From Candidatus Aminicenantota bacterium (GTDB lineage Bacteria; Acidobacteriota; Aminicenantia; Aminicenantales; UBA4085), in the NCBI GenBank assembly GCA_003141555.1, contig PLMN01000030.1, positions 1 to 64,000 of the forward strand: a stretch of 64,000 nt of DNA, given 5' to 3'. The position numbers and the translations under genes were made by a program. Shown piece by piece: positions 18,884 to 34,207 of the stretch. The notes under the pieces are model-generated. The model did not search any database, was not told the origin of the DNA, and was given only the letters and a program-made list of their open reading frames with translations. Within the stretch, counting starts at the first letter, position 1; each line of letters starts with the position of its first letter.

Positions 18884-20146
18884 TCATTTTCCTTTTTTCA
18901 GGTTTGAAAGACTCGAGAGATATCCAGGAACTTCGGAGGCAGGGTATTCGTCATACACCGCGTGTTTCAGCCTCCACGCTCCGTTTTCATTTTTCCAAAT
19001 ATGCGGCTGCCGGAAGCGGTCCGTTATTTGCCAAAATCGCTCTTCTGAGATATCTAAATATTCCAAGAATTCTTTGAACCAGCGATGTGGGAACTCTCCA
19101 TCAAATCGACGGACGAGGGCCGCGGCTTCTTCTCGCGTTATATGTCCGTCACGCACCTCATGCGCCGAATCCGACGTTGCCCTAGCGATGCCAAACTTGA
19201 TAAAAGCCAAATAGAAATGGAAACCATCCATCTGGTCGTCCAGGCTGGCGTATTTTGAGTACGTCCCCTCTGAACGCCCTTCCGGATTTGCCTGGAACCC
19301 GGTATGTTCGCTGGCATAATAATAATTTTCCTGCGGTACCCATTTCTTATAATAAGAAAACCAATGGAATTCGACGCCTAATCTTCTCATTTCGTCGATG
19401 TCCGGGGGGCGGTAGAACGTCAGATCGGATTCATCATAATCTGCTTTGGTAAAATAGTCAGTTTCTTCCAATCCATATGAAACCAAATCGTCCACCATAA
19501 CCCCTTTAAAGTATTGCTCGGCCCATATTTCAAAGGGCATTCCCCTCAGATTGTACACACGTGGATCCCCGCTATATTCGGCTTCACCGTTCTCGCCAAA
19601 AAAAACCAACTTAATTCCAAAGCTTTTTGCGATGTGAAAAGCATAACACACCTGCCCATAAGTAAACGGTTGCCAGGCATCTCCCAGAGCCTCGAAGGCG
19701 ATACGGGATAATTTTCTATGGAAATGACCATTTGGCCATGCCATCAAGTTGTTAAACTTTCCAATTTTAATAAAATTTCTAAAATTCTTATAGCCTTCCG
19801 GCGTATACTCAAAAGGCGCCCACGTAACGGTTAAAGGGTGCATCCCATAGATATATTTCAATTCATGTGCCACGCGGCTACTGTCTTTGCCGCCACTACT
19901 CGGCACAATGATATCAAAGTGGCCGTCATTTCTGCGATATTGATCACACAATTCTCGCAACTGCTTTTCCTTCTCTCGCCAATCAGTTTCGTTTTTCTTC
20001 ATCTCGGCGAATCTGCATGCGCCACAAAGTCCATCTTCGCCAAAATGAATTCGAGGCCTTTGGTTCGACACAACACATTTTTTACAAAATATGACTTCTT
20101 TAGGAAGGATTGGCAATTGCCTATCCAGTATTTTGGGGCTAATCAT
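18884..20146 (-). CDS. N-acetyl sugar amidotransferase (WbpG/PseA/PtmG-like)
   Basis: A 420-residue ATP-PPase-type amidotransferase. The N-terminus has a zinc ribbon with CxxC pairs (FCKKCVVSNQRPRI, then GLCGAC), followed by the PP-loop IVPSSGGKDSSRVAHEL near residue 80. This is the TIGR03573/WbpG family, which turns an acetamido group into an acetamidino group using ammonia channelled from a glutaminase partner. The next two genes are that HisH/HisF-like pair, as in P. aeruginosa O5. With the nonulosonate genes around it, the likely product is an acetamidino-legionaminic acid (for example Leg5Am7Ac), as PtmG makes in Campylobacter. The substrate is inferred. Confidence 0.85.
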   Translation of the reverse strand: MISPKILDRQLPILPKEVIFCKKCVVSNQRPRIHFGEDGLCGACRFAEMKKNETDWREKEKQLRELCDQYRRNDGHFDIIVPSSGGKDSSRVAHELKYIYGMHPLTVTWAPFEYTPEGYKNFRNFIKIGKFNNLMAWPNGHFHRKLSRIAFEALGDAWQPFTYGQVCYAFHIAKSFGIKLVFFGENGEAEYSGDPRVYNLRGMPFEIWAEQYFKGVMVDDLVSYGLEETDYFTKADYDESDLTFYRPPDIDEMRRLGVEFHWFSYYKKWVPQENYYYASEHTGFQANPEGRSEGTYSKYASLDDQMDGFHFYLAFIKFGIARATSDSAHEVRDGHITREEAAALVRRFDGEFPHRWFKEFLEYLDISEERFWQITDRFRQPHIWKNENGAWRLKHAVYDEYPASEVPGYLSSLSNLKKGK

Positions 20147-20158
20147 GGCGTGTCTCCT

Positions 20159-20827
20159 TTAAATTCGATTAAGCGCAGCAGCAAAATTATGGTAAATCCT
20201 CAAACCTTGAGGGCCGCTCCGTTCAGGATGGCTTTGACACGCAAAGATATTGTCGTGTTTCAAGGCTGAACAAAATTCAATATCCCCATACTTTGTAACG
20301 GCAATTCCAATTTCGCGCTCTTCAAGACGGACATAATAGGAGTGAACAAAATACAAGAAAACTCCATTCGACAATCCCTCTAAAAGCGAGCCAGCCCAAG
20401 GATCATTATCCCCATCAGTTTTGAGCATTCGGTTCCAGCAAACTTGAGGCACCTTCAATGCCCCTTGAATGCCAATGGGGGCCTCAAAACGTACGACCGT
20501 TCCAGGGATGAGGCCCAACCCGGCATGCCGGCCGAATTCAAGGCTTTCGGTCATCAATAACTGCATTCCTAAACAAATCCCAAACAATGGTTTTCGAGAA
20601 GCAGCTAAATCTATTAAGACTTTTATCAAGTCCAAACGCTGCAGTGTCTCTATGGCGACACCGAAAGCCCCGACGCCTGGCAGTATTACCGCATCCGCAC
20701 TTAATATATTATGGGCCGACGAGGTGATCAAAGCATTTAAACCGACATGTTCGCAGGCATTCTTCACGCTGAATAGATTACCCATACCATAATCAATGAT
20801 AGCAACCCGTTTTCTCTTGTCAGGCAT
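20159..20827 (-). CDS. hisH: HisH-like glutaminase subunit of sugar amidotransferase
   Basis: A 222-residue class I glutamine amidotransferase of the HisH family: IIDYGMGNLFSVKNACEHVG at the N-terminus, ILPGVGAFG, the nucleophile motif FGICLGMQLLM near residue 85, and the His-Glu pair in SHPERSGPQG near 195. No other histidine genes are nearby. It sits between hisF-like and wbpG-like genes, so it should supply ammonia for acetamidino formation rather than histidine synthesis. Its start overlaps the end of the hisF-like gene by eight bases. Confidence 0.88.
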   Translation of the reverse strand: MPDKRKRVAIIDYGMGNLFSVKNACEHVGLNALITSSAHNILSADAVILPGVGAFGVAIETLQRLDLIKVLIDLAASRKPLFGICLGMQLLMTESLEFGRHAGLGLIPGTVVRFEAPIGIQGALKVPQVCWNRMLKTDGDNDPWAGSLLEGLSNGVFLYFVHSYYVRLEEREIGIAVTKYGDIEFCSALKHDNIFACQSHPERSGPQGLRIYHNFAAALNRI

Positions 20828-21689
20828 TTATCGACATTTTCTCAATAGGTCGGCACGGAATATTACGCATAGCTAAATCCGTCTTGATCTCTTCTAAAGC
20901 CGCGCCTTGGATGCGAGAAAATCCTTGCCCACTCCGTAAAAATTCAATATTACCTTCGCTAGAATAATCGTCTTCCGTATAGTTATTCCGTATATAGTCA
21001 TAGTGTAAGATTGAGGCTACACAAACGGCATCGGCTTTTCCGAGGGTCAACACCGTAGACATGTCCTCGACTCTTCCAGCTCCTCCACAAGCAATAACGG
21101 GTATGGAGATCGATTGGGCGACTCGGCTTGTAAGATCAAGATTGAAACCTTGACCCGTACCTTCTCGATCAATCGATGTTAGCAGAATTTCGCCCGCTCC
21201 CAATTCCTCAACTCGTTTGGCCCATCCAAAAACTTCTATTCCCGTCCTAACTCGCCCGTTATCTGTATAAGCCTCATACGATCCGTCTGGCCGCTTTTTC
21301 GCTTCTATGGAAACAACGATCGTAGATGAACCAAAACGCCGGGACGCTTCACGGATCAAATCTGGTCGCCCAATCGCTGCCGTGTTTAACGAAACTTTAT
21401 CTGCTCCTGCCTGCAACATGACTCGAATATCATCCACGGTCCGTAATCCGCCTCCGACCGTCAAAGGGATAAATATTTCTTTTGAGGTCTTCCTGACAAT
21501 GTCTAACAGACCGTTTCTTTCATAAAGACTAGCAACGACATCCATATAGATCAATTCGTCTGCGCCGTGCTCATAGTAGTACCGAGCAAACCGCTCGGGC
21601 TTGCCGAGCACTCGTAAACCCTCAAGATGAATCCCCTTCACCAAATTTGGGCCTTTGATATCCAATCTGGGAATCACCCGAAAATACAT
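20820..21689 (-). CDS. hisF: HisF-like cyclase subunit of sugar amidotransferase
   Basis: A 289-residue TIM-barrel protein of the HisF family: RVIPRLDIKGPNLVKGIHLE at the N-terminus, IPLTVGGGLRTVDDIRVMLQ near residue 80, DKVSLNTAA, and LLTSIDREGTGQGFNLDL near 170. The catalytic aspartates of HisF (first strand D and TSIDREGT) are present. The C-terminus is about 30 residues longer than housekeeping HisF, as in the HisF2/LPS-linked subgroup. The ATG at 21689 is preferred over one at 21740 because AAAAGGA lies seven bases upstream and the normal HisF N-terminus begins there. It should tunnel ammonia from the HisH partner to the WbpG-like enzyme. Confidence 0.87.
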   Translation of the reverse strand: MYFRVIPRLDIKGPNLVKGIHLEGLRVLGKPERFARYYYEHGADELIYMDVVASLYERNGLLDIVRKTSKEIFIPLTVGGGLRTVDDIRVMLQAGADKVSLNTAAIGRPDLIREASRRFGSSTIVVSIEAKKRPDGSYEAYTDNGRVRTGIEVFGWAKRVEELGAGEILLTSIDREGTGQGFNLDLTSRVAQSISIPVIACGGAGRVEDMSTVLTLGKADAVCVASILHYDYIRNNYTEDDYSSEGNIEFLRSGQGFSRIQGAALEEIKTDLAMRNIPCRPIEKMSINA

Positions 21690-21729
21690 GCGGTAATCCT
21701 TTTGAACCCGATGGTAATTCTTTTTACAA

Positions 21730-22380
21730 TTATGCAACAATATTCAGCGGACGAGCTGGAACGCCCGCCACAACCGTATGCGCTAGAACGTTTTTCACGA
21801 CAACGGCGCCGGCCCCGACAATGGCCCTTTCTCCGATCGTAAGGCACTGCCTGACGGTTGCACCGGCCCCAATGTGCGCGCCATCGCCGACCCGAACAGT
21901 ACTGGCAAGCTTAGCCCCCGTCGCGATATGAACGTGATCCCCGACAATGCAATCATGCTCCACAATGCCACCGCTGTTCACGATCACGTTCACACCTATC
22001 ACCGCTCCGGCGTTGATAATACTCCCTGGAAGAAGCTGCGAACCGGCTCCAATTTTGGCCCACCGCGAGCAAACAGCCGCCGGATGCACTATGGTCAGCG
22101 GCTTCAAATGATTGGCTAGTCCCAAGTCATACAATCGTTGACGGGGCTGATTGTTTCCAGTCCCCCCGAGTCCGACCACGAAGCAATTGACGCCTCGGGC
22201 GAATATATCCGCTAACAGATCATCGCCGCCCAAGATCGGGATATTCATAAGCTCTTGACCCCAGCGAGTTCGATCATATTCAAGGATACCGGCCAATTTT
22301 GTACGGCCAATCATCTGGATGCAATCGATCAGTACCCGGGCGTGTCCCCCGCCCCCTAGAATCACGCAAACATCACCCAT
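21730..22380 (-). CDS. neuD: NeuD/LegH-type sugar N- or O-acetyltransferase
   Basis: A 216-residue PglD/NeuD family acetyltransferase. It has an N-terminal Rossmann-like sugar-nucleotide domain (VILGGGGHARVLID) and a C-terminal left-handed beta-helix with the catalytic histidine in GGIVEHDCIVGDHVHI near residue 140. The tail VVAGVPARPLN is typical. In legionaminate synthesis LegH acetylates the 4-amino sugar made by LegC; in sialic acid clusters NeuD O-acetylates. With LegB and LegC present, the LegH role is favoured. It lies three bases after the neuC stop. Confidence 0.87.
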   Translation of the reverse strand: MGDVCVILGGGGHARVLIDCIQMIGRTKLAGILEYDRTRWGQELMNIPILGGDDLLADIFARGVNCFVVGLGGTGNNQPRQRLYDLGLANHLKPLTIVHPAAVCSRWAKIGAGSQLLPGSIINAGAVIGVNVIVNSGGIVEHDCIVGDHVHIATGAKLASTVRVGDGAHIGAGATVRQCLTIGERAIVGAGAVVVKNVLAHTVVAGVPARPLNIVA

Positions 22381-22383
22381 CGA

Positions 22384-23559
22384 TCATCCTTCATCCACCG
22401 CCGTAATATCCAAATCATGGAATCGCTTCAAGAGAAGCCGATCATCCAAGGTTACATCTCTCAGCTTTGAGACGATGATTTCGGACGCCCGCCCCAAACT
22501 ATATGGGTTTGACATCCGACGCAAATTGGCCCGGAATTCCGGCCGGAGGGCCTGATGAATTCCTTTTATAATTTCCGTACGTTCATATCCAACGTCAATG
22601 ACATTCGCGGCCTTGACTCGCCCTATTTGTCGCGTTCCGATGTTCACAAATGGCAGCCCAAACGATGGTGCTTCAATGATTCCACTCGACGAATTGCCGA
22701 CCATCGCCATCGCTATCGCCATCAGACTGAAATATCCTTGAGAGCCAAAGTTGTCCACTTTTTGCGCCCATGAACGCGTCCGAATAAATGTTTCGATTTT
22801 TTGCATCATCAGCCGGCCGCCTGTGTCGGCGTTAGGCATCGTGAAGATGACCGGAATATCGCACTCTTCCAGCGCGGCCAGCAATTCGCCTAATTGCCAA
22901 TCTGCACGTTCATACTCCAGCGTCACGGGATGGAACGTCACAAGAAGGGGAGGAGGGTGAAGGTGCAGATGATAGCGTGACTCAAGCTCCTCAGGAGAAA
23001 AGAGTCGTATCGCTGGAATATTATCAAGCCCCGGCGCTCCGGAGACCGTAATTCGCCAGGGCTCCTCTCCCATTTGCCGCAAACGCCGGGCATACTCTCG
23101 GGTTGATGTAAAATGTAGGTGGCTAAGCTTGGTCATAGAATGGCGCAAGGCATCATCCATTGCGCCCAACGTGATTTCTCCGCCGTGAATATGCGCAATG
23201 GGGATTTTAAATGGGAGCGCCGCTACAGCGGCGGCATACATCTCGAAACGGTCCCCGAGGACGACCAAGATGTCCGGGCAAAATCGACCAAAGGCTTGCG
23301 CGAAGCCGATTGTGCCCAAACCGATGGATTTGGCGATCCCTTCAGGGGAATCCGAGGAAAGAAGCATCTCCACCCGTTCACTGATCGGAAAGCCATCAGA
23401 TTCTATCGCCCGGACTGTCAGCCCGAACTCCGGCGACAGATGCATTCCAGAGACTATCAAATGAAGGCTTAATTCCGGATCCGCTTGGATCTTGCGTAAT
23501 ATAGGCAGATAAATCCCATAGTCGGAACGGGCGACCGTTACGACACCTAGGATTCTCAA
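22384..23559 (-). CDS. neuC: hydrolysing NDP-sugar 2-epimerase (NeuC/LegG)
   Basis: A 391-residue enzyme of the hydrolysing UDP-GlcNAc 2-epimerase family. Features are GVVTVARSDYGIYLPILRKI at the start, SGMHLSPEFG, DILVVLGDRFEMYAAAVAA near residue 95, IAHIHGGEITLGAMDDALRH near 115, and VGNSSSGIIEAPSFG near 300. It releases the nucleotide and inverts C2 to give the hexosamine condensed by NeuB/LegI. The frame is open further upstream, but the conserved N-terminus starts at a TTG that overlaps the neuB stop (TTGA), so that start is chosen. LegG rather than NeuC is expected from the company of LegB and LegC. Confidence 0.88.
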   Translation of the reverse strand: MRILGVVTVARSDYGIYLPILRKIQADPELSLHLIVSGMHLSPEFGLTVRAIESDGFPISERVEMLLSSDSPEGIAKSIGLGTIGFAQAFGRFCPDILVVLGDRFEMYAAAVAALPFKIPIAHIHGGEITLGAMDDALRHSMTKLSHLHFTSTREYARRLRQMGEEPWRITVSGAPGLDNIPAIRLFSPEELESRYHLHLHPPPLLVTFHPVTLEYERADWQLGELLAALEECDIPVIFTMPNADTGGRLMMQKIETFIRTRSWAQKVDNFGSQGYFSLMAIAMAMVGNSSSGIIEAPSFGLPFVNIGTRQIGRVKAANVIDVGYERTEIIKGIHQALRPEFRANLRRMSNPYSLGRASEIIVSKLRDVTLDDRLLLKRFHDLDITAVDEG

Positions 23560-24617
23560 GTCAGCATCTCTAAAGTCAGGATCGTTCCGGCCGGTATAAA
23601 GAAGCGCGAAGTGCGTCCGATCACGAAAGAACTCATTGCCGGCGGAAGACCCGTGCCTGGTCGCCGTATGGCGACCCTCTCCATGGTCAGCGGTGTCCCC
23701 TCCGGAATATCGCAAGCCGCTACCAGGCTTTTACGCGCCGTTGCCGCCGTATTCGCTTCGGAGGCCGCCGGTTCCTTTCGGCCGTGTCCCAACGCTGCTT
23801 CAACCAGGCGGATGCCATGAACCAAATTGGCCAATTCGGCCGGTTCTAGGGAAGATTGATGATCCGGACCGGGTAAGGTCCGATCTAGAGTAAAGTGTTT
23901 TTCAACGACACAAGCCCCTAACGCGACCGCTGCGAGAGACACCTCAATGCCCTGCGTGTGATCGGAATAGCCTACCGGAACGCCGAACGCTGTCTTCAAG
24001 GTCTGCATGGCCCGCAGATTAATATCGGCGGGATCTGCTGGATAATTGCTGACGCAATGTAGCAAAACAACATCCTTATTCCCTGCTTTCCAGACGGCAT
24101 TGACCGCCGTCTCCACTTCTCCCAGAGTCGCCATACCAGTCGAAACAATCATCGGTTTACCTAAACGGGCGATATGGACTAAAAATGGAATGTTTGTGAT
24201 CTCTCCCGAGGGGATTTTAAAGGCCGCTACTCCCAAGGAGTCAAGAAAATCGGCGCTTTGTTCGTCAAACGGAGAAGACAAAAAAAGTATATCGCTTCGG
24301 CGGCAGAGGTCCATAACCGCTCGGTGCGCCTTCGGGGAGAGTTCCAATCGCCTCAGCATCTCGAATTGTGACTCGACAGAGCCCGTATTATGGCGCTGAT
24401 ATTCGGCCTTTGGGGCAGATATCGTCACCAACCGTTTGGCCTTGAAAGTTTGAAACTTGACGGCATCCGCGCCAACTTGCCTGGCTTTATTGACCAAGCG
24501 GCGAGCCAGATCAAAGCGGCCGTTATGGTTCACGCCAGCTTCAGCAATAATAAAACAGGGGTTACCAGGGCCAATCCTGTGGTTCGCGATTTTAAGAGAC
24601 GTCACCATATGGTCCAT
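23556..24617 (-). CDS. neuB: nonulosonate synthase (NeuB/LegI)
   Basis: A 353-residue NeuB family synthase. It has a TIM barrel with CFIIAEAGVNHNG at residue 20, DAVKFQTFKAKRLVT near 50, FKIPSGEITN near 135, and the LHCVSNYPADPADINLRAM strip near 185 that binds PEP and metal. The C-terminal SAF/antifreeze-like domain (about 290-353) contains SLVAACDIPEGTPLT. It condenses the 6-carbon amino sugar with phosphoenolpyruvate to a 9-carbon nonulosonic acid. NeuB, LegI and PseI cannot be separated by eye, but LegB/LegC/NeuD neighbours point to legionaminic acid. It overlaps the upstream SDR gene by 16 bases. Confidence 0.92.
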   Translation of the reverse strand: MDHMVTSLKIANHRIGPGNPCFIIAEAGVNHNGRFDLARRLVNKARQVGADAVKFQTFKAKRLVTISAPKAEYQRHNTGSVESQFEMLRRLELSPKAHRAVMDLCRRSDILFLSSPFDEQSADFLDSLGVAAFKIPSGEITNIPFLVHIARLGKPMIVSTGMATLGEVETAVNAVWKAGNKDVVLLHCVSNYPADPADINLRAMQTLKTAFGVPVGYSDHTQGIEVSLAAVALGACVVEKHFTLDRTLPGPDHQSSLEPAELANLVHGIRLVEAALGHGRKEPAASEANTAATARKSLVAACDIPEGTPLTMERVAIRRPGTGLPPAMSSFVIGRTSRFFIPAGTILTLEMLT

Positions 24618-25411
24618 CCGCCATCAACGACGAGATTATGGCCGGTGACATAGTCCGAAAGATCGCTGGCCAAGAAAGCGACGGCGCCTTTCAAATCCTC
24701 TTCGACGGCCATCCGATTAAGCGGTGTCTTGGCCTTATAGCGCTGATGAAAGTCCTCCGCCTGGTTTCTCCAAACTCCACCGACGGTTATAGCATTGACC
24801 CGCACGTCCGGAGCAAGTGCCGTAGCGAACCACCGGGTCAATTGGAGAAGCCCGCCTTTGCTTGCGGCATACGCCGCCGGATTGCCCAGTTTCGTTCCGA
24901 CATAAAGACTTTTATCCGGTCCGACGATCCCGTATATCGACCCGACATTGATGACGGAGCCGTGACCCGAAGCGGTCAACATCAGGGCACAGGCCTGGGT
25001 CAGCACAAACGGAGCCGTCAGATTGATTTCCAAGGCCAACCGCCACGTGTCTACTCTCTGTTCTGAAAGCGAAGTCGCCCATCCTTTCAACTCAGAAGTG
25101 CCGACCAATGCGGCGTTATTGATCAAAATATCTAGACGCCCCATTTTATCCATAACAAAGTGTGGCACTGCCCGAACGGCATTTTCATCCGCCAGATCAA
25201 TAGGCAAAGGGACGGAACGAATCCCGAATTTGGAGCGTATTTGGTCGGCAACTTCTCGGCAAGAATCCTGGGCAATATCCAGCAAAACCAAGTCCGCGCC
25301 AAGTTCAGCAAGAGCTTCTCCCATCGCCGCCCCGATATGTCCTGCAGCCCCGGTCAACAAGACCACGCGCCCCTTCAAATCCATGAGGGTCTTAAGTGAT
25401 CGCGCGTTCAT
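24602..25411 (-). CDS. SDR oxidoreductase of the nonulosonate cluster (PtmA-like)
   Basis: A 269-residue classical SDR with VVLLTGAAGHIGAAMGEALA near residue 15 for cofactor binding, LVLLDIAQDS (acidic, favouring NAD), INNAALVGTS near 95, catalytic serine in INVGSIYG near 160, YAASKGG (YxxxK) near 185, and a C-terminal DGGWTIW. Similar SDRs (PtmA) accompany legionaminate genes in Campylobacter, but their exact role is not settled. It is coupled to the CMP-sugar synthetase gene upstream by a 4-base overlap. Confidence 0.85.
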   Translation of the reverse strand: MNARSLKTLMDLKGRVVLLTGAAGHIGAAMGEALAELGADLVLLDIAQDSCREVADQIRSKFGIRSVPLPIDLADENAVRAVPHFVMDKMGRLDILINNAALVGTSELKGWATSLSEQRVDTWRLALEINLTAPFVLTQACALMLTASGHGSVINVGSIYGIVGPDKSLYVGTKLGNPAAYAASKGGLLQLTRWFATALAPDVRVNAITVGGVWRNQAEDFHQRYKAKTPLNRMAVEEDLKGAVAFLASDLSDYVTGHNLVVDGGWTIW

Positions 25412-26115
25412 GGTTTCGCCCTCCCAAGTAGGAATTCGGCGATCTCTAAATCCAGTTCCGTATCGATATCCAGGCTACGCTCCGATGGCATAATACGGGC
25501 CATCACCTTGCCTTGAAATATAGAATCGGCCCTCAACACAAACTCGGGCCGGGCTACATAGGCAATGGTTGTCATGTCGTATACGGAAGGGACATCTTGG
25601 CGACAAAATACCGTTTTTAAAGGCGGAATCACAAGTCGGGCATAGCCTTTATCATCAAGAGTGACCATATTAAAATAAGGGTTTCGACCCGCCGGTCTGA
25701 CCGCGATGACAACATCGGCATCGCTTTCCAAAAACATTTTAATGCAATCATCCACATCGATAACACTTCGTAGGGGCGAAGTGGTAGGCACGGATACGAA
25801 CGCTTTCCAAGCATGCTTGCCATCCTCGCCGCATAACGTTCGAATGGCATGTTGCCAAGAGAGCCATTCCGGCGACTCATCCCTCGCCAAATCAGCCGGC
25901 CTTATGAAGGGGACTTCGGCTCCGTATCGTCTTGCGACGGTCGCGATTTCCTCATCTTCCGTTGAAACAAATACCCGGTCGATAAAACGGCTCGCCCGAG
26001 CCATATCGATGGCGTGCGCAATCAAAGGCTTTCCCGCAAGCATGCGGATATTTTTGCGGGGCACGCCTTTTGAGCCTCCCCGGGCGAATATCCCGGCCAC
26101 GATCTCGGGTTTCAC
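25408..26115 (-). CDS. legF: CMP-nonulosonate cytidylyltransferase (LegF/PtmB/NeuA type)
   Basis: A 235-residue cytidylyltransferase. The N-terminal nucleotide-binding motif reads IFARGGSKGVPRKNIRMLAG, followed by PLIAHAIDMARAS and VFVSTEDEEIATVARRYGAE. VSVPTTSPLR near 115 and a DIDTELDLEIAE end are typical of CMP-sialate/legionaminate synthetases. It activates the free nonulosonic acid with CTP for transfer. The open frame extends upstream, but the GTG at 26115 overlaps the previous stop (GTGA) and begins at the normal family start, so it is chosen. Confidence 0.9.
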   Translation of the reverse strand: MKPEIVAGIFARGGSKGVPRKNIRMLAGKPLIAHAIDMARASRFIDRVFVSTEDEEIATVARRYGAEVPFIRPADLARDESPEWLSWQHAIRTLCGEDGKHAWKAFVSVPTTSPLRSVIDVDDCIKMFLESDADVVIAVRPAGRNPYFNMVTLDDKGYARLVIPPLKTVFCRQDVPSVYDMTTIAYVARPEFVLRADSIFQGKVMARIMPSERSLDIDTELDLEIAEFLLGRAKP

Positions 26116-27107
26116 AATCGTACGACTCGCTGTTCGATGGATGATAGCTTTGCGGCAAGCGCGATCTGCAATACACGCCGTCCATCCTCTCCGCTTATGA
26201 CCGGTTCGGAGACGCCCTTGACACAATCGAGAAAATGTCGAATTTCCCGAAGATACATGTCATTTCGGTCGACAGACTGGATCGGGTGCAAATCCGTCCA
26301 TGCTTTAGTTATGGAAGAGAACAGGCGCACCTGATGGGAACTTCCGTCCCAAATAATAGTTCCTTCGGTGCCTATGATTCGACAATAACGGGTCGCTACG
26401 CGCTGAATCATGTCTAAATGAACGCTACCGATAGCACGATTGCAGAAATGGAGTATGATCTCGGCCGTATCTTCAACATCGATGTCTAAATCGCTCAACC
26501 GACCGATTTGAGAATTAACCGTTTGAATCTCGCCGAGAAACCATCGCACATAATCCAATTCATGGCTCAGTTCAAGTAACGCACCGCCTCCTAACTCGGA
26601 TTTGGCGCTGACATTCTGGCTGTAGTCGCCGCCGGGGCGCCAATCGGGCAAGTATTGGCCGACTTCCGCACGGATCGACAGAACTCGCCCGATTCGTTCA
26701 TTCTGCAATGCTTGGCGCACAATCTGCAAGGGTTTATAAAACCGAAAATTATATCCAACAAGTAAAACCAGCCGGCGATTGCGGCATAGATCGAGAAGTT
26801 CATCGACCCCATCAAGGCTATTGGAGAGGGGTTTCTCTATGAATAGGTGCGCCCCCTTTTTCGCCAATTCCAACCCAGCACCCACGTGCAGCGGCGAGGG
26901 GCTCGTGATGAGGGCTACCTCCGGTTGGGCAGCAAGCGCATCTTCAAGCCGACTTACAAAACGATCTTTATGGGATAAAAACTCCCTGCATTCAGAAAGT
27001 TTTGATTCCTGATCCCAGACGGTAATGTGAGCATTTGGATCGATTAAACGCAAATTCGCCAAATGGCGGCGCCCAATGCTTCCCAAACCAACGATAAGCG
27101 CTCTCAT
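26112..27107 (-). CDS. Gfo/Idh/MocA family oxidoreductase in nonulosonate cluster
   Basis: A 331-residue NAD(P)-dependent sugar oxidoreductase: IVGLGSIGRRHLANLRLIDP at the N-terminus, the EKP motif in LFIEKPLSNSLDGV near residue 95, and GGGALLELSHELDYVRWF near 170 with the usual histidine region. Proteins like this often appear in legionaminate and related clusters, beside the CMP-synthetase. A step has not been assigned with certainty; oxidation or epimerisation of a sugar intermediate is likely. GTGA coupling to the cytidylyltransferase supports a shared pathway. Confidence 0.83.
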   Translation of the reverse strand: MRALIVGLGSIGRRHLANLRLIDPNAHITVWDQESKLSECREFLSHKDRFVSRLEDALAAQPEVALITSPSPLHVGAGLELAKKGAHLFIEKPLSNSLDGVDELLDLCRNRRLVLLVGYNFRFYKPLQIVRQALQNERIGRVLSIRAEVGQYLPDWRPGGDYSQNVSAKSELGGGALLELSHELDYVRWFLGEIQTVNSQIGRLSDLDIDVEDTAEIILHFCNRAIGSVHLDMIQRVATRYCRIIGTEGTIIWDGSSHQVRLFSSITKAWTDLHPIQSVDRNDMYLREIRHFLDCVKGVSEPVISGEDGRRVLQIALAAKLSSIEQRVVRL

Positions 27108-29889: not shown

Positions 29890-31164
29890 TCAGGCCTTCG
29901 GCAGACCTTCTTTCTTTTGCTTTTCCAGATTTTCCCGGAAAAAAACAATGCAAACCGAGAGACAAAATCCGATAAATCCGGCGATCAAGACATTCTGTTT
30001 TTTATTTGGAGAAACGGGGCCAAACGACGGTGTCGGCTCCTTGATAAGTTGCGTATAATCAATTCGATTTTTTTTATCTTCAAAAAGCTTGATATCATTC
30101 TTAAGATTGGTGATATTATTGCGGATTCCAAGGATCCCAGTTTTAATATTCTCGATTCCCGTTTTCATGGATTCAATTTCAGTTTGATTCGAATCCATCC
30201 CCGTTCGAACCTGACTGATTTGATTATCGATTTGGCGCAACGCCTCCGTTTTGCCCTGGATGGATTGAGTCAGGCCTTCACGATTCAACCGTTCAGCGCT
30301 CACTTTTTCTTCGAGCGAATTATTATATCGTAGATTCTGCTGTACTTCGTTGGAATAAAGGAGCAGGGCAAGGGCATCGGTTCCCTCTTTTCGTTCAGCC
30401 AAAGCCTTCTGTTGTTGCTTTTCCAGCTCGTCGATTCGCGTCTTAACCGACTTCATTTCTTCAAAAATACTCAGAATCCGCTCTTCGGTTATTTTAAGCC
30501 TACTTTTGTCGGATTCAATCTCATTATTGAGTTTTTCCTTATCTATCTTTTTCGACTCAATATCAAACTCCTTGAGCTTGATCCCATTTTGCCGGATTTT
30601 GATCTCGTTCTGAGCCGTAATAATTGCGTTTTCGCGCGATTTAATTTCATTTTCGAGATCGAGAATCTTATTTTTCGTTAGTTCGACTTGGGTGTTCAGG
30701 CTGCTTATTTCGACATCGATTTTCTTATCAAAATCGCTTTTTAGGTGGTTGAACAGCGCTGTGAGAATCTGCTGCCCCTTGCCGACAGCTTCCCCTCGAA
30801 CAGAGATACGGACGAGGTTAGTATCGCGTAGATTTTCGGCCTTAATTTTTGGAAATTCGTGCTCAGGGATATTGAGCTCGGCACCGATGAGAGAATTGTA
30901 GGATCCTTCCGTGATCTGGCTAGCGATTTGCTTCGGCTCAACAACAAGGACCTGTTTGAATTCGCCAGCCTGATTCTGAGTCAGAAACTTGCTCGGGATA
31001 ATGATGGCATCCACTTCCCATATTTTGGGGAGAAGAAAGCTAACGGTGGCCGCGAGGATAGCTAGCACAATCGTCGGGATGACAATTTCCCATCGTCGTT
31101 TCCAGGCTACGGTGAAGTACTCCATTAAATTGATGCTCTCAATTTCCATCTCATCTTGGTGCAT
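29890..31164 (-). CDS. wzz: Wzz-family polysaccharide chain-length regulator
   Basis: A 424-residue protein with the Wzz architecture: a short N-terminal cytoplasmic part (MEIESINLMEYFTVAWKRRW), a first membrane helix (about 25-45), a periplasmic region with a very long coiled coil (about 140-370, rich in E, K, I, N), a proline-containing segment near EPTPSFGPVSPNKK, and a second membrane helix near the C-terminus. No tyrosine kinase domain follows, so it resembles O-antigen Wzz more than a full BY-kinase. It sets chain length together with Wzy. The ATG at 31164 is chosen because AGGA lies seven bases upstream; an in-frame ATG at 31188 has none. Confidence 0.87.
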   Translation of the reverse strand: MHQDEMEIESINLMEYFTVAWKRRWEIVIPTIVLAILAATVSFLLPKIWEVDAIIIPSKFLTQNQAGEFKQVLVVEPKQIASQITEGSYNSLIGAELNIPEHEFPKIKAENLRDTNLVRISVRGEAVGKGQQILTALFNHLKSDFDKKIDVEISSLNTQVELTKNKILDLENEIKSRENAIITAQNEIKIRQNGIKLKEFDIESKKIDKEKLNNEIESDKSRLKITEERILSIFEEMKSVKTRIDELEKQQQKALAERKEGTDALALLLYSNEVQQNLRYNNSLEEKVSAERLNREGLTQSIQGKTEALRQIDNQISQVRTGMDSNQTEIESMKTGIENIKTGILGIRNNITNLKNDIKLFEDKKNRIDYTQLIKEPTPSFGPVSPNKKQNVLIAGFIGFCLSVCIVFFRENLEKQKKEGLPKA

Positions 31165-31223
31165 AAAAAAATCCTTTAAGCATTTCAACTAAAGTTTAGC
31201 ACGATTAGGAGAAAGAGAAAAGT

Positions 31224-31706
31224 TCAGCGTTGTTCGCCGATGATGCAATCGAGCTTATAATTTCCGTAGCTATCGATAGGATCGCGCCCGACTTTCTGCC
31301 AATTTCCTTCGGGAAGGAAAGTCGCCTTGGCGAAGCACTTCTTCAACTCAGCGCCGGGACGGATATCTTCAGAGGAGATGAAATGCAAAGTAAAGCTGTA
31401 ATAGACGTTTGGCTTAGCGGCAATGACTTGGTCAAGAATCGTCTTAGAAATATCCTCGAGTTTGGCTTTGATCGGGTGCCCTTGAACGCGGATCCAATAG
31501 AATCTATTAATCGTTGGGAAACCGATTGAATCAGTTTTGAGGATCTTGATCGGCTCCCCCGTAAGAGCTGTTACTTTTGCTTCATCTATTTCGGATACGG
31601 CCAAAGCAGACGAAGACGATTCCGGAGCCTGGCCACTTTTGCTACAGCCAACAATAAAAAGACCGACGGTGACCCCCCAAGTAATAAAAAGCACGTTCAA
31701 TTTCAT
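31224..31706 (-). CDS. small lipoprotein of unknown function, first gene of the polysaccharide locus
   Basis: A 160-residue protein with a lipoprotein signal: MKLN, a hydrophobic stretch, then the lipobox LFIVGC with Cys near residue 21. The mature part is serine- and acid-rich at first (SSSALAVSEIDEAKVTALTG), then a compact domain with KPNVYYSFTLHFIS and a second cysteine near the C-terminus. The domain is not recognised. A strong Shine-Dalgarno (AAGGAGGGGGAG) precedes the ATG. As the first gene after the promoter and ops-like leader it is probably tied to polysaccharide export or assembly, which is inference from position. Confidence 0.75.
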   Translation of the reverse strand: MKLNVLFITWGVTVGLFIVGCSKSGQAPESSSSALAVSEIDEAKVTALTGEPIKILKTDSIGFPTINRFYWIRVQGHPIKAKLEDISKTILDQVIAAKPNVYYSFTLHFISSEDIRPGAELKKCFAKATFLPEGNWQKVGRDPIDSYGNYKLDCIIGEQR

Positions 31707-31790
31707 CTCCCCCTCCTTCAGCCGTCAATCGACGGCCAATTGGTTCCCCTGAAAAAAGTCTATTACAACAAAAAAGATAACAAAAATAGG

Positions 31791-31802
31791 TAAGCTACCG
31801 CC
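31791..31802 (-). promoter_or_regulatory. ops-like element (GGCGGTAGC) in the leader of the polysaccharide locus
   Basis: On the minus strand the leader reads GGCGGTAGCTTA. The first nine bases equal the conserved part of the ops element (GGCGGTAGC followed by a variable base and T) that recruits the NusG paralogue RfaH to paused RNA polymerase. It lies about 145 bases after the predicted start point and 85 bases before the first gene, in a leader without other genes. Several T-tracts follow it. A nine-base match can occur by chance in 64 kb; the position makes it credible. Confidence 0.55.
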
Positions 31803-31953
31803 ATTTGATTATGAGGCGTCGAGCGCTTTCATCTCTCAGAATGCCAACAAAATAATTGTAATATCAATACAAGCTTGATCGCCGTTTAGATGAAAGAACG
31901 TCCCCCATCCTATCAAATTGCATTCTTTTCCAGGCCCCAACCAACCGTGTTGA

Positions 31954-31982
31954 ATTCTATCTGAAGAGAGCAAATAGGTCAA
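31954..31982 (-). promoter_or_regulatory. sigma70-like promoter of the polysaccharide locus
   Basis: Minus strand: TTGACC (31977-31982), a 17-base spacer, then TAGAAT (31954-31959). Both hexamers are one base from consensus and the spacing is ideal. It lies just after the lptD gene and reads into the lipoprotein, wzz and the nonulosonate genes, with a leader of about 240 bases containing the ops-like element. No gene occupies 31707-32008. Confidence 0.65.
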
Positions 31983-32008
31983 GAAAATGTTATTACTCAG
32001 TTGAATAA

Positions 32009-34207
32009 TTAATCCCACCCGGCCCCGCCCAGGAAATCCGTCGTCTTGCCGATGTTCCCCAGACCGAGGGAGATCTTATACTGGAACTCCGGCTTGTCCC
32101 GGAAAAAGTAGATCCGGACGTCCGCCTTGAAGTCCAGGCACTGGTAGTGGTACGTCACGCTCGCGGCCGTGTACATCATCTGCATGTCGGAAATATCGTA
32201 GTCGATCTCCGCCTTCCCCTCTAGATTGATGAACGGGAGCTTCGCCCCGCCCGCCAGGCTGACCTCTTGGCGATCATAGTAGATGTTCTTGTAATAGGGA
32301 TTTGCGCTCTTGTACCAGCTGGCGTTCAGGAACGCGCTGTCCGCAGGCGTACCCAGGCTGGCTGCCAGGCGGATGGTCGAGAAGACCTTGAAATACGTGT
32401 TGTAGCTCGAGCTGAAATCGAAACTGAATTTCTCCGCGGGATAGAAGCGGATATAGCTGGTAATCTCCGAAAACTGGGGAATAGTCCCATTGATAGAGCC
32501 GTAAAAGCTAAGGGGGCTGTCTTCGGGCGACAGATAATAGGTTTGAGATAACCCCCACGTAAAAACCTCGCGCGGAGTTTCGGCCGTCTTGAGCAGGAAG
32601 TGGTTCGTCAGGCCGTAGGTCAATTGATGGTAGCGGAACAGGGGACTGGTGGACGCCACCTCGTCCACGTTGACCGTGGGGCTCTCATAGCGGTACGAGA
32701 TCGACGGCTCGATGATGTGCTTCAGGCGCCTGGCCGGCGCGGCGGAGCCGTCCTCCCCCGAATCCGATCCGCCCAAGTCCCAGATCCTGTAGAAAACCGG
32801 CCCGATCAACTCGGCAGTGACAGCGTAGTTCGATGTCAGGATGGGCGTGTCCACGCGCCCTACGCCGGGCTGCAGGCTCTGCCAGTAGTATCGAACGTTG
32901 CTCTCCAAGGAGAAATTCGTGGTCAGCCACGGGATGCCGTTAAACGGAAGGCTCACCGAGGGATTGAACGCCAAGTCCTGGCCCCTGAGCTGTTGGCCAA
33001 GCTTGTACTGGTAATCCCATCCATATTGCCAGCTGTTGAAGGTTGTGGAGAACGAAAGAAACAAGGGGCCAAGGAGCTTCATTTTGAAGGAATCGAAATT
33101 GATCTGGGGCAGGGCGCGGGTCACGAGCGATCCCGTGCTGAGTGTCAGAAAGCTCGTTTCGAATTGCGCAGCCCGGACGCTGAAATTGAATGTGCTCCAG
33201 GACTTCGAGAGATAGATCTGGGAGCTCTTGTTGAAGACCAGGGCCCGCATGAAATCGTTGTCGAATTCGCGCAGGAACTCGAAGGAGCTCTGGTAATCGA
33301 CGTTGGCCACCAGGGTGAAGCCGCCCGGCAACGCCTGGCTGTGGTTCCAGCGGATGATGTAGGCATCGTCGGGTTTCGTCCCATCGGCCTGCGTCTTGAA
33401 CGTGAAATAATACAGGTGGGCGTTGCCGTTTGTCCCGTCCGGGAATATGTAGCGGTACTCGAGGCCGGCGCCGGTTCCCTTGCTGGCGTAGTAGTCGAGG
33501 CTGAAGGTTGCATCCATGTTGCGGGCGATCGCCCAGTAAAAACCTTCGGAAAAGCGCAGCCCTTTGGTTTGCGAGTATCCGACCAGGGGCATAAGGAATC
33601 CCGTCGCCCGATCCTGGTCGAGCGGGTAGCGCATATAGGGCCAATAGAAGAGCGGAACGCCTTTGACCGAGACCACGGCGTTCCACATCTCCACGTAGTC
33701 GTCTTTCTTGAAATTCGCCCGCGAAAAGGAGAACTTCCAGCGGGGGACGGGTTGGGCGCACGACGTGAACTCGCCCTTGCCCATGCTGTAGAGGTCGTCG
33801 GGCTCGCGCTCGATCACATCCGCCTGGTAGCGGATCGTCGGCTGGATGAGGCCGACCGCCTTGAGGATCGTGCCCTGGTCGCTGTCCATGTTGAACGCCA
33901 AGCTCTCGGCACTCAGGATCTCGGCCGGCATCTCGAGCGTCACATGGCCCACGGCGGTCACGTCCTTGGTCTTGGTGTCGAGGTCCACTCGATCGGCCAT
34001 GATCTTGATGGTGCGGTAGACGATCACCACGTTGCCGGTCAGGATGACCTTGTCGGGCTCGCCGGGCGGCCGTTCCTGCTTGTCGGATGCGATCTTGATC
34101 TCGGAGGATTGGGGGGTGGAGGCGGCGGTTTGGGAAGAGAGGGAAGCTGTCGCGAGAGCGAAGAACGGGATCAGGAACGCAGAAAGGGCGCGAAAAAAAC
34201 GGGGCAC
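32009..34207 (-). CDS. lptD: LPS-assembly protein LptD
   Basis: A 732-residue outer-membrane protein starting with GTG. It has a signal peptide (about 1-28, ending near SSQTAAS), an OstA/LptA-like domain (about 40-160: KVILTGNVVIVYRTIKIMAD, then RVDLDTKTKDVTAVGHV), and a large C-terminal LptD beta-barrel from FYWPYMRYPLDQDRATGFLM onward, ending with an aromatic-rich strand. It inserts LPS into the outer leaflet with LptE. Only two cysteines were found (in EFTSCAQP and YQCLDFKA), compared with four in E. coli, so at most one disulfide forms. It follows rfbB by six bases and is probably cotranscribed with the rfb genes. Confidence 0.92.
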   Translation of the reverse strand: MPRFFRALSAFLIPFFALATASLSSQTAASTPQSSEIKIASDKQERPPGEPDKVILTGNVVIVYRTIKIMADRVDLDTKTKDVTAVGHVTLEMPAEILSAESLAFNMDSDQGTILKAVGLIQPTIRYQADVIEREPDDLYSMGKGEFTSCAQPVPRWKFSFSRANFKKDDYVEMWNAVVSVKGVPLFYWPYMRYPLDQDRATGFLMPLVGYSQTKGLRFSEGFYWAIARNMDATFSLDYYASKGTGAGLEYRYIFPDGTNGNAHLYYFTFKTQADGTKPDDAYIIRWNHSQALPGGFTLVANVDYQSSFEFLREFDNDFMRALVFNKSSQIYLSKSWSTFNFSVRAAQFETSFLTLSTGSLVTRALPQINFDSFKMKLLGPLFLSFSTTFNSWQYGWDYQYKLGQQLRGQDLAFNPSVSLPFNGIPWLTTNFSLESNVRYYWQSLQPGVGRVDTPILTSNYAVTAELIGPVFYRIWDLGGSDSGEDGSAAPARRLKHIIEPSISYRYESPTVNVDEVASTSPLFRYHQLTYGLTNHFLLKTAETPREVFTWGLSQTYYLSPEDSPLSFYGSINGTIPQFSEITSYIRFYPAEKFSFDFSSSYNTYFKVFSTIRLAASLGTPADSAFLNASWYKSANPYYKNIYYDRQEVSLAGGAKLPFINLEGKAEIDYDISDMQMMYTAASVTYHYQCLDFKADVRIYFFRDKPEFQYKISLGLGNIGKTTDFLGGAGWD

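Follow-up and report, generated by a model that had tools for sequence, protein, structure and literature searches.

Organization of the Locus and Its Leader

The window, i.e., the whole stretch of 64,000 nucleotides that was analysed, is part of a genome of Candidatus Aminicenantes, uncultured bacteria related only distantly to E. coli; MAGs of this group are its closest named genomes. It carries on its minus strand a long polysaccharide operon, separated from an LptD-like gene located directly upstream (32009–34207, minus strand) by a promoter and an untranslated leader (31707–32008, minus strand). The promoter consists of the −35 hexamer TTGACC (31977–31982, minus strand) and the −10 hexamer TAGAAT (31954–31959, minus strand) with a spacer of 17 nt, both recognized by direct reading of the sequence as well as by a promoter scan, which returned TTGACC-17-TAGAAT and no other promoter-like site (10 of 12 positions matched; 0.6 expected). 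The leader alignment places TTGACG-17-TAAAAT at this location in the congeneric genome G001, with TTGAC retained and TAAAAT found in the same place as TAGAAT. No ORF of at least 100 aa is present across the leader between the stop of the LptD-like gene (32009) and the first operon gene (31706).

The ops-like element GGCGGTAGCTTA (31791–31802, minus strand), seen by direct reading and as the invariant block of the leader alignments, starts 151 nt past the −10 box and about 145 nt from the probable transcription start. Just upstream lies a short extension (31805–31807, minus strand), which in the window reads C(−5) A(−4) A(−3) and for which the consensus is C-C-A. The start codon of the first operon gene is positioned 96 nt downstream of the start of the element. 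This gene (31224–31706, minus strand) encodes a 160-aa protein of no known family, with an N terminus that appears lipoprotein-like by eye and with homologues at the same locus in G001, G002, and G009. It is followed by a gene for a Wzz-like chain-length protein (29890–31188, minus strand; PF02706, E 1.5e-8), and the remainder of the operon (314–29374, minus strand) comprises genes for sugar dehydratases, DegT, NeuB, NeuC, a CMP-sugar transferase, WbuX, glycosyltransferases, and Polysacc_synt_3. The genes for NeuB, NeuC, the CMP-sugar transferase, HisF/HisH-like proteins, and WbuX are grouped at 18884–26226 (minus strand) and probably represent a nonulosonic-acid pathway of the legionaminate/pseudaminate type within the operon.

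An earlier note on this DNA had described the promoter, the ops-like 12-mer about 145 nt after it, and a leader devoid of genes, all of which are found at this location. It had also described the polysaccharide genes from 31706 to 314 as co-directional apart from inserted IS elements; the common direction is borne out by the ORFs and their Pfam matches, but the IS elements are unconfirmed, as none of the ORFs scanned matched a transposase family.

Occurrence of the Element within the Genome

The bare nine-mer at the beginning of the element occurs once in the window, and shuffled versions of the window contain 0.32 copies on average, with at least one copy in 29 of 100 shuffles. The caution in the earlier note that a nine-base match is not rare by chance was thus well placed for the nine-mer. 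Genome-wide there are 30 copies of the nine-mer, fewer than the 84 of the reversed pattern. Of the nine-mer copies, 27 are located within coding sequence; counts of the bare nine-mer were therefore set aside as uninformative.

The extended form GCGGTAGCKTR behaves differently. Exactly two copies are present in the 3.79 Mb genome, both in the correct orientation at the head of polysaccharide operons, one of them being the element described here and the other located on C24, 55 bp before an exopolysaccharide operon that encodes Wzx, Wzy, GT4, a sugar transferase, a beta-barrel porin, Wza, and Wzc. The restriction of the extended element to these two places puts it above chance. The expectation that ops-like sites should be commoner in operon leaders than elsewhere consequently fails for the nine-mer, which is not concentrated there, and holds for the 12-nt element.

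Conservation of the Element in the Order

The order of the LptD gene, the leader, and the Wzz gene is kept in five genomes (G000, G001, G002, G009, and G013). Their leaders align poorly, with a mean identity of 45%, and the longest block common to all five is GCGGTAGC-Y-T-R. In G002, the element begins with A, so its first base is not fixed. Exact GGCGGTAGCKTR sites number 35 in 59 genomes, and the intergenic ones include eleven, from several families, that head polysaccharide operons in the right orientation. The form GGCGGTAGCCTG was found by inspection upstream of Wzz homologues, and a search for it yielded many more sites; position 10 can accordingly be C or T in the order (T in the window), and the full 12-mer GGCGGTAGCGTG, with G at this position, is not matched. 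T11 is present in the window and also in the syntenic leaders found through Wzz, whereas position 12, A in the window, is G in 52 and A in 27 of 79 noncoding sites of the order.

A search of 94 genomes of the order with the pattern GGCGGTAGC[CT]T[AG], pooling both forms of position 10, gave 125 distinct sites, 80 of them noncoding and 45 coding by simple ORF rules. For a scrambled 12-mer control, only 2 of 30 sites were noncoding (Fisher p 5e-9), an enrichment outside coding sequence that agrees with the earlier proposal, with the statistics of leaders versus other places being based on the fetched loci. Since the core bases are fixed by the search pattern, their invariance among these sites is in part a product of the search itself, and only the leaders found by synteny demonstrate constancy; related genomes included in the counts are, in addition, not independent. 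The consensus of the extension, C-C-A at −5 to −3, is seen at noncoding sites (A−3 in 66 of 79, C−4 in 54 of 79) and is not enriched at coding ones, and an extension of this type is present at 61 of 79 noncoding versus 8 of 45 coding sites (p 1e-10).

Polysaccharide homologues, called with a small reference set on contigs that are often truncated, lie at most 8 kb downstream of 37 of the 80 noncoding sites and of 2 of the 45 coding sites (p 3e-7). Restricting the noncoding sites to those with the extension and with 3 kb or more of sequence available downstream leaves 33, of which 24 precede polysaccharide genes. The first start codon follows the element at a median of 58 nt, and the first genes encode Wzx-type flippases in 16 of 64 cases; among the others are genes for glycosyltransferases and papain-type peptidases, together with some for kinases and FHA proteins. 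Several polysaccharide loci (L107, L108, L110, L288) have, as the first large gene past the element, one for a C1 peptidase of the papain family. At six loci (L272, L273, L244, L277, L250, L251), genes for FHA or T6SS-FHA-like proteins, histidine kinases, or STAND-like ATPases follow the element instead of sugar genes, so the regulon may extend beyond polysaccharides.

An RNA stem-loop conserved as a general feature ahead of the element was considered and rejected, as the mean folding z is 0.09, compared with 0.24 at coding sites. Neither the leader of the window nor any of 11 further Aminicenantes loci has an Rfam family scoring above gathering, the JUMPstart RNA RF01707 included; with the covariance model RF01707, 60 bits are obtained for the rfb leader of E. 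coli. In one genus only, g10 (L283, L259, L260, L261, L287), a GC-rich, terminator-like hairpin with the sequence CCGCGAGGTGCGG or one like it, and after it GTTTTAT, is found just upstream of the element and at a fixed distance from it.

The NusG Paralogue

The search for a NusG paralogue suggested by the earlier note was successful. In addition to the housekeeping NusG, which is encoded at C21 in the usual ribosomal-protein neighbourhood, the genome encodes a 160-aa RfaH-like member of the NusG family. Its score is highest with the NCBIfam RfaH profile (73.5 bits, below the equivalog cut-off of 144.5 bits), followed by UpxY (52), LoaP (36), and NusG (29), and among PDB entries it matches chains of E. 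coli RfaH, with an identity to E. coli RfaH of about 21%. The 3 kb surrounding its gene in this genome contain no recognizable polysaccharide gene. Of the 59 genomes searched, this one included, 49 have the paralogue, in a single copy with one exception and with 52–79% identity in the relatives; in a phylum-wide sample it is present in 26 of the 28 genomes that belong to the order.

E. coli RfaH reads G5 and T6 of ops with Lys10, His20, Arg23, and Arg73 (PMC5995543). Compared with it, the family (54 sequences) keeps Lys/Arg10, Thr72, Arg73, Gly74, Val75, Phe130, Arg138, and Leu142, whereas Arg16, His20, Arg23, Gln24, and Glu48 are replaced. Half of the E. coli reading head is thus altered, with Lys/Arg10 and Arg73 kept and His20 and Arg23 replaced, and G5 and T6 are unchanged. 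Arg16, His20, and Arg23 touch or support contacts with ops in E. coli RfaH. Of the residues related to autoinhibition, Glu48 is replaced, and Phe130 and Arg138 are kept. AF2, run on 11–13 sequences, predicts a NusG-type N-terminal domain and a C-terminal domain in the beta form, the latter with low confidence and uninformative on fold-switching.

Counted by hand genome by genome, leader sites are present in 32 of 49 genomes with the paralogue and in 3 of 10 without it, a weak tendency in the expected direction (p 0.07). The exact site is missing in 17 genomes that have the paralogue, and leader sites in the absence of a detected paralogue are clear in G010 and G041 and doubtful in G011, these being incomplete assemblies.

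Comparison with Known Systems

In E. coli, ops recruits the elongation factor RfaH to long operons for surface sugars. The element shares with ops of E. coli (JUMPstart) the GGCGGTAGC core, T at position 11, and, where position 12 is G rather than A, that base as well, and the E. coli rfb leader carries CCA at exactly −5 to −3, as in Aminicenantes (CCT in the waa leader). The placement in leaders of O-antigen and exopolysaccharide operons, a trans-acting NusG paralogue, and its residues Lys10 and Arg73 are also common to the two systems. In Aminicenantes, however, position 10 is C or T rather than G, His20, Arg23, Arg16, and Glu48 are not kept, the JUMPstart RNA has no match, and the paralogue, found in another phylum, is distant in sequence. 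LoaP of Bacillota, like the paralogue proposed here, is a NusG paralogue promoting long operons, and it is recruited via an RNA hairpin; Aminicenantes, in contrast, have a DNA-type 12-mer with no conserved fold upstream, and the paralogue scores lower with LoaP than with RfaH. UpxY of Bacteroides is likewise a NusG paralogue serving polysaccharide operons, although each target operon contains its own UpxY gene (PMC7593976), whereas the Aminicenantes paralogue is a single gene located elsewhere, with a lower score for UpxY than for RfaH. In its proposed working the system resembles RfaH/ops. We would nevertheless call it a variant of this kind from another phylum, not RfaH proper, because the core and the placement agree with those of ops, while position 10 differs, the score stays below the cut-off for RfaH equivalogs, and the RNA model of JUMPstart has no match.

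Proposed Mechanism and Alternative Explanations

The 12-nt element most likely, with a probability of roughly 0.85, serves as an ops-type recruitment site for a specialized, RfaH-type paralogue of NusG acting in trans. The interpretation in terms of ops and RfaH offered in the earlier note is thus largely right, with the paralogue present and the 12-nt element heading polysaccharide operons; silencing of the operon and antitermination are conjectural parts of it. RNA polymerase would start at TTGACC-17-TAGAAT, transcribe about 145 nt, and then, by analogy with E. coli, pause at the element, which matches the consensus pause in its GG (−11/−10), Y (−1), and R (+1). The paused complex would expose GGCGGTAGC on the non-template strand, to be bound by the RfaH-like paralogue, which, again by analogy, would displace NusG, remain with the polymerase, and keep it going through all 31 kb of the polysaccharide operon. 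This paralogue would also serve the second exopolysaccharide operon of the genome, as well as similar operons throughout the order.

A nine-base match arising by chance and lacking function would agree with the presence of the nine-mer in 29% of the window shuffles and with the coding location of 27 of its 30 genomic copies, yet it would leave the specificity of the 12-nt element, its placement in leaders, its conservation in orthologous positions, and the extended consensus unaccounted for. Conservation in five syntenic leaders, together with the enrichment over the scrambled control, in effect refutes this explanation, the least probable of all. Scarcely more credible is a mere pause site for RNA polymerase, involved in leader folding or coupling to translation and requiring no dedicated factor. 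The ends of the element do match the consensus pause (GG...YR), but its central bases, which are dispensable for pausing in E. coli (PMC5995543), are nevertheless kept in the syntenic leaders, and the RNA upstream of it shows no fold that is conserved in general (mean z 0.09).

It is also conceivable, although unlikely, that the element is a genuine regulatory site of polysaccharide operons whose reader is a different DNA-binding regulator or a factor binding the leader RNA, with the paralogue acting elsewhere. The co-occurrence of paralogue and element, which reaches only p 0.07, the up to three genomes that have leader sites and no detected paralogue, and the change of two of the four side chains contacting DNA in E. 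coli would fit such a reader. Against it, positions 1–9 and 11 are those of E. coli ops and position 12 is G or A, so that every base of the loop contacted by RfaH is identical; the orientation of the element is fixed with respect to the strand, and in the window it lies inside the predicted transcript. The paralogue, in turn, resembles RfaH more closely than any other protein of the genome, and it occurs almost throughout the order.

Distribution and Significance

RfaH has been described as mostly proteobacterial, with about 95% of hits in Proteobacteria and hits in 23 of 117 phyla; recognition of ops was regarded as a late step within Proteobacteria, and E. coli RfaH is the only one for which the mode of recruitment is known in detail (PMC7593976). 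Among the papers searched, none deals with RfaH together with Aminicenantes, and none combines NusG, Acidobacteriota, and antitermination. With an ops-like element and its likely partner protein in Aminicenantes, control of the RfaH/ops type is probably not confined to Proteobacteria.

A phylum-wide pattern was considered and rejected, as matches outside the order are mostly isolated and located in coding frames, with the exception of one sister-order genome that has two intergenic sites. In this genome (G327, same class), the two CCAAGGGCGGTAGCAT[A/G] sites, L339 and L355, have similar flanks (gaaaaaacCCAAGGGCGGTAGCAT) and are located about 390–430 nt before genes for an AAA_13 ATPase (PADLOC PDC-S06 match) and a type II DNA methyltransferase, making ops-type control of defence operons possible in G327. 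We would tentatively venture, as a rather doubtful extension, that sequence-specific recruitment through ops is older or more mobile than thought, that the Aminicenantes paralogue reads the core and C-C-A with partly different residues and perhaps without fold-switching, and that the sister-order sites, with A at position 10, may head anti-phage defence operons.

The presence of an ops-like element in Aminicenantes raises the question of an ancient origin, transfer, or convergence. A nearly identical element at dozens of leader sites in another phylum offers a comparative test of which bases of ops and which residues of RfaH co-vary, and the motif provides a practical marker for the heads of regulated operons in uncultured bacteria.
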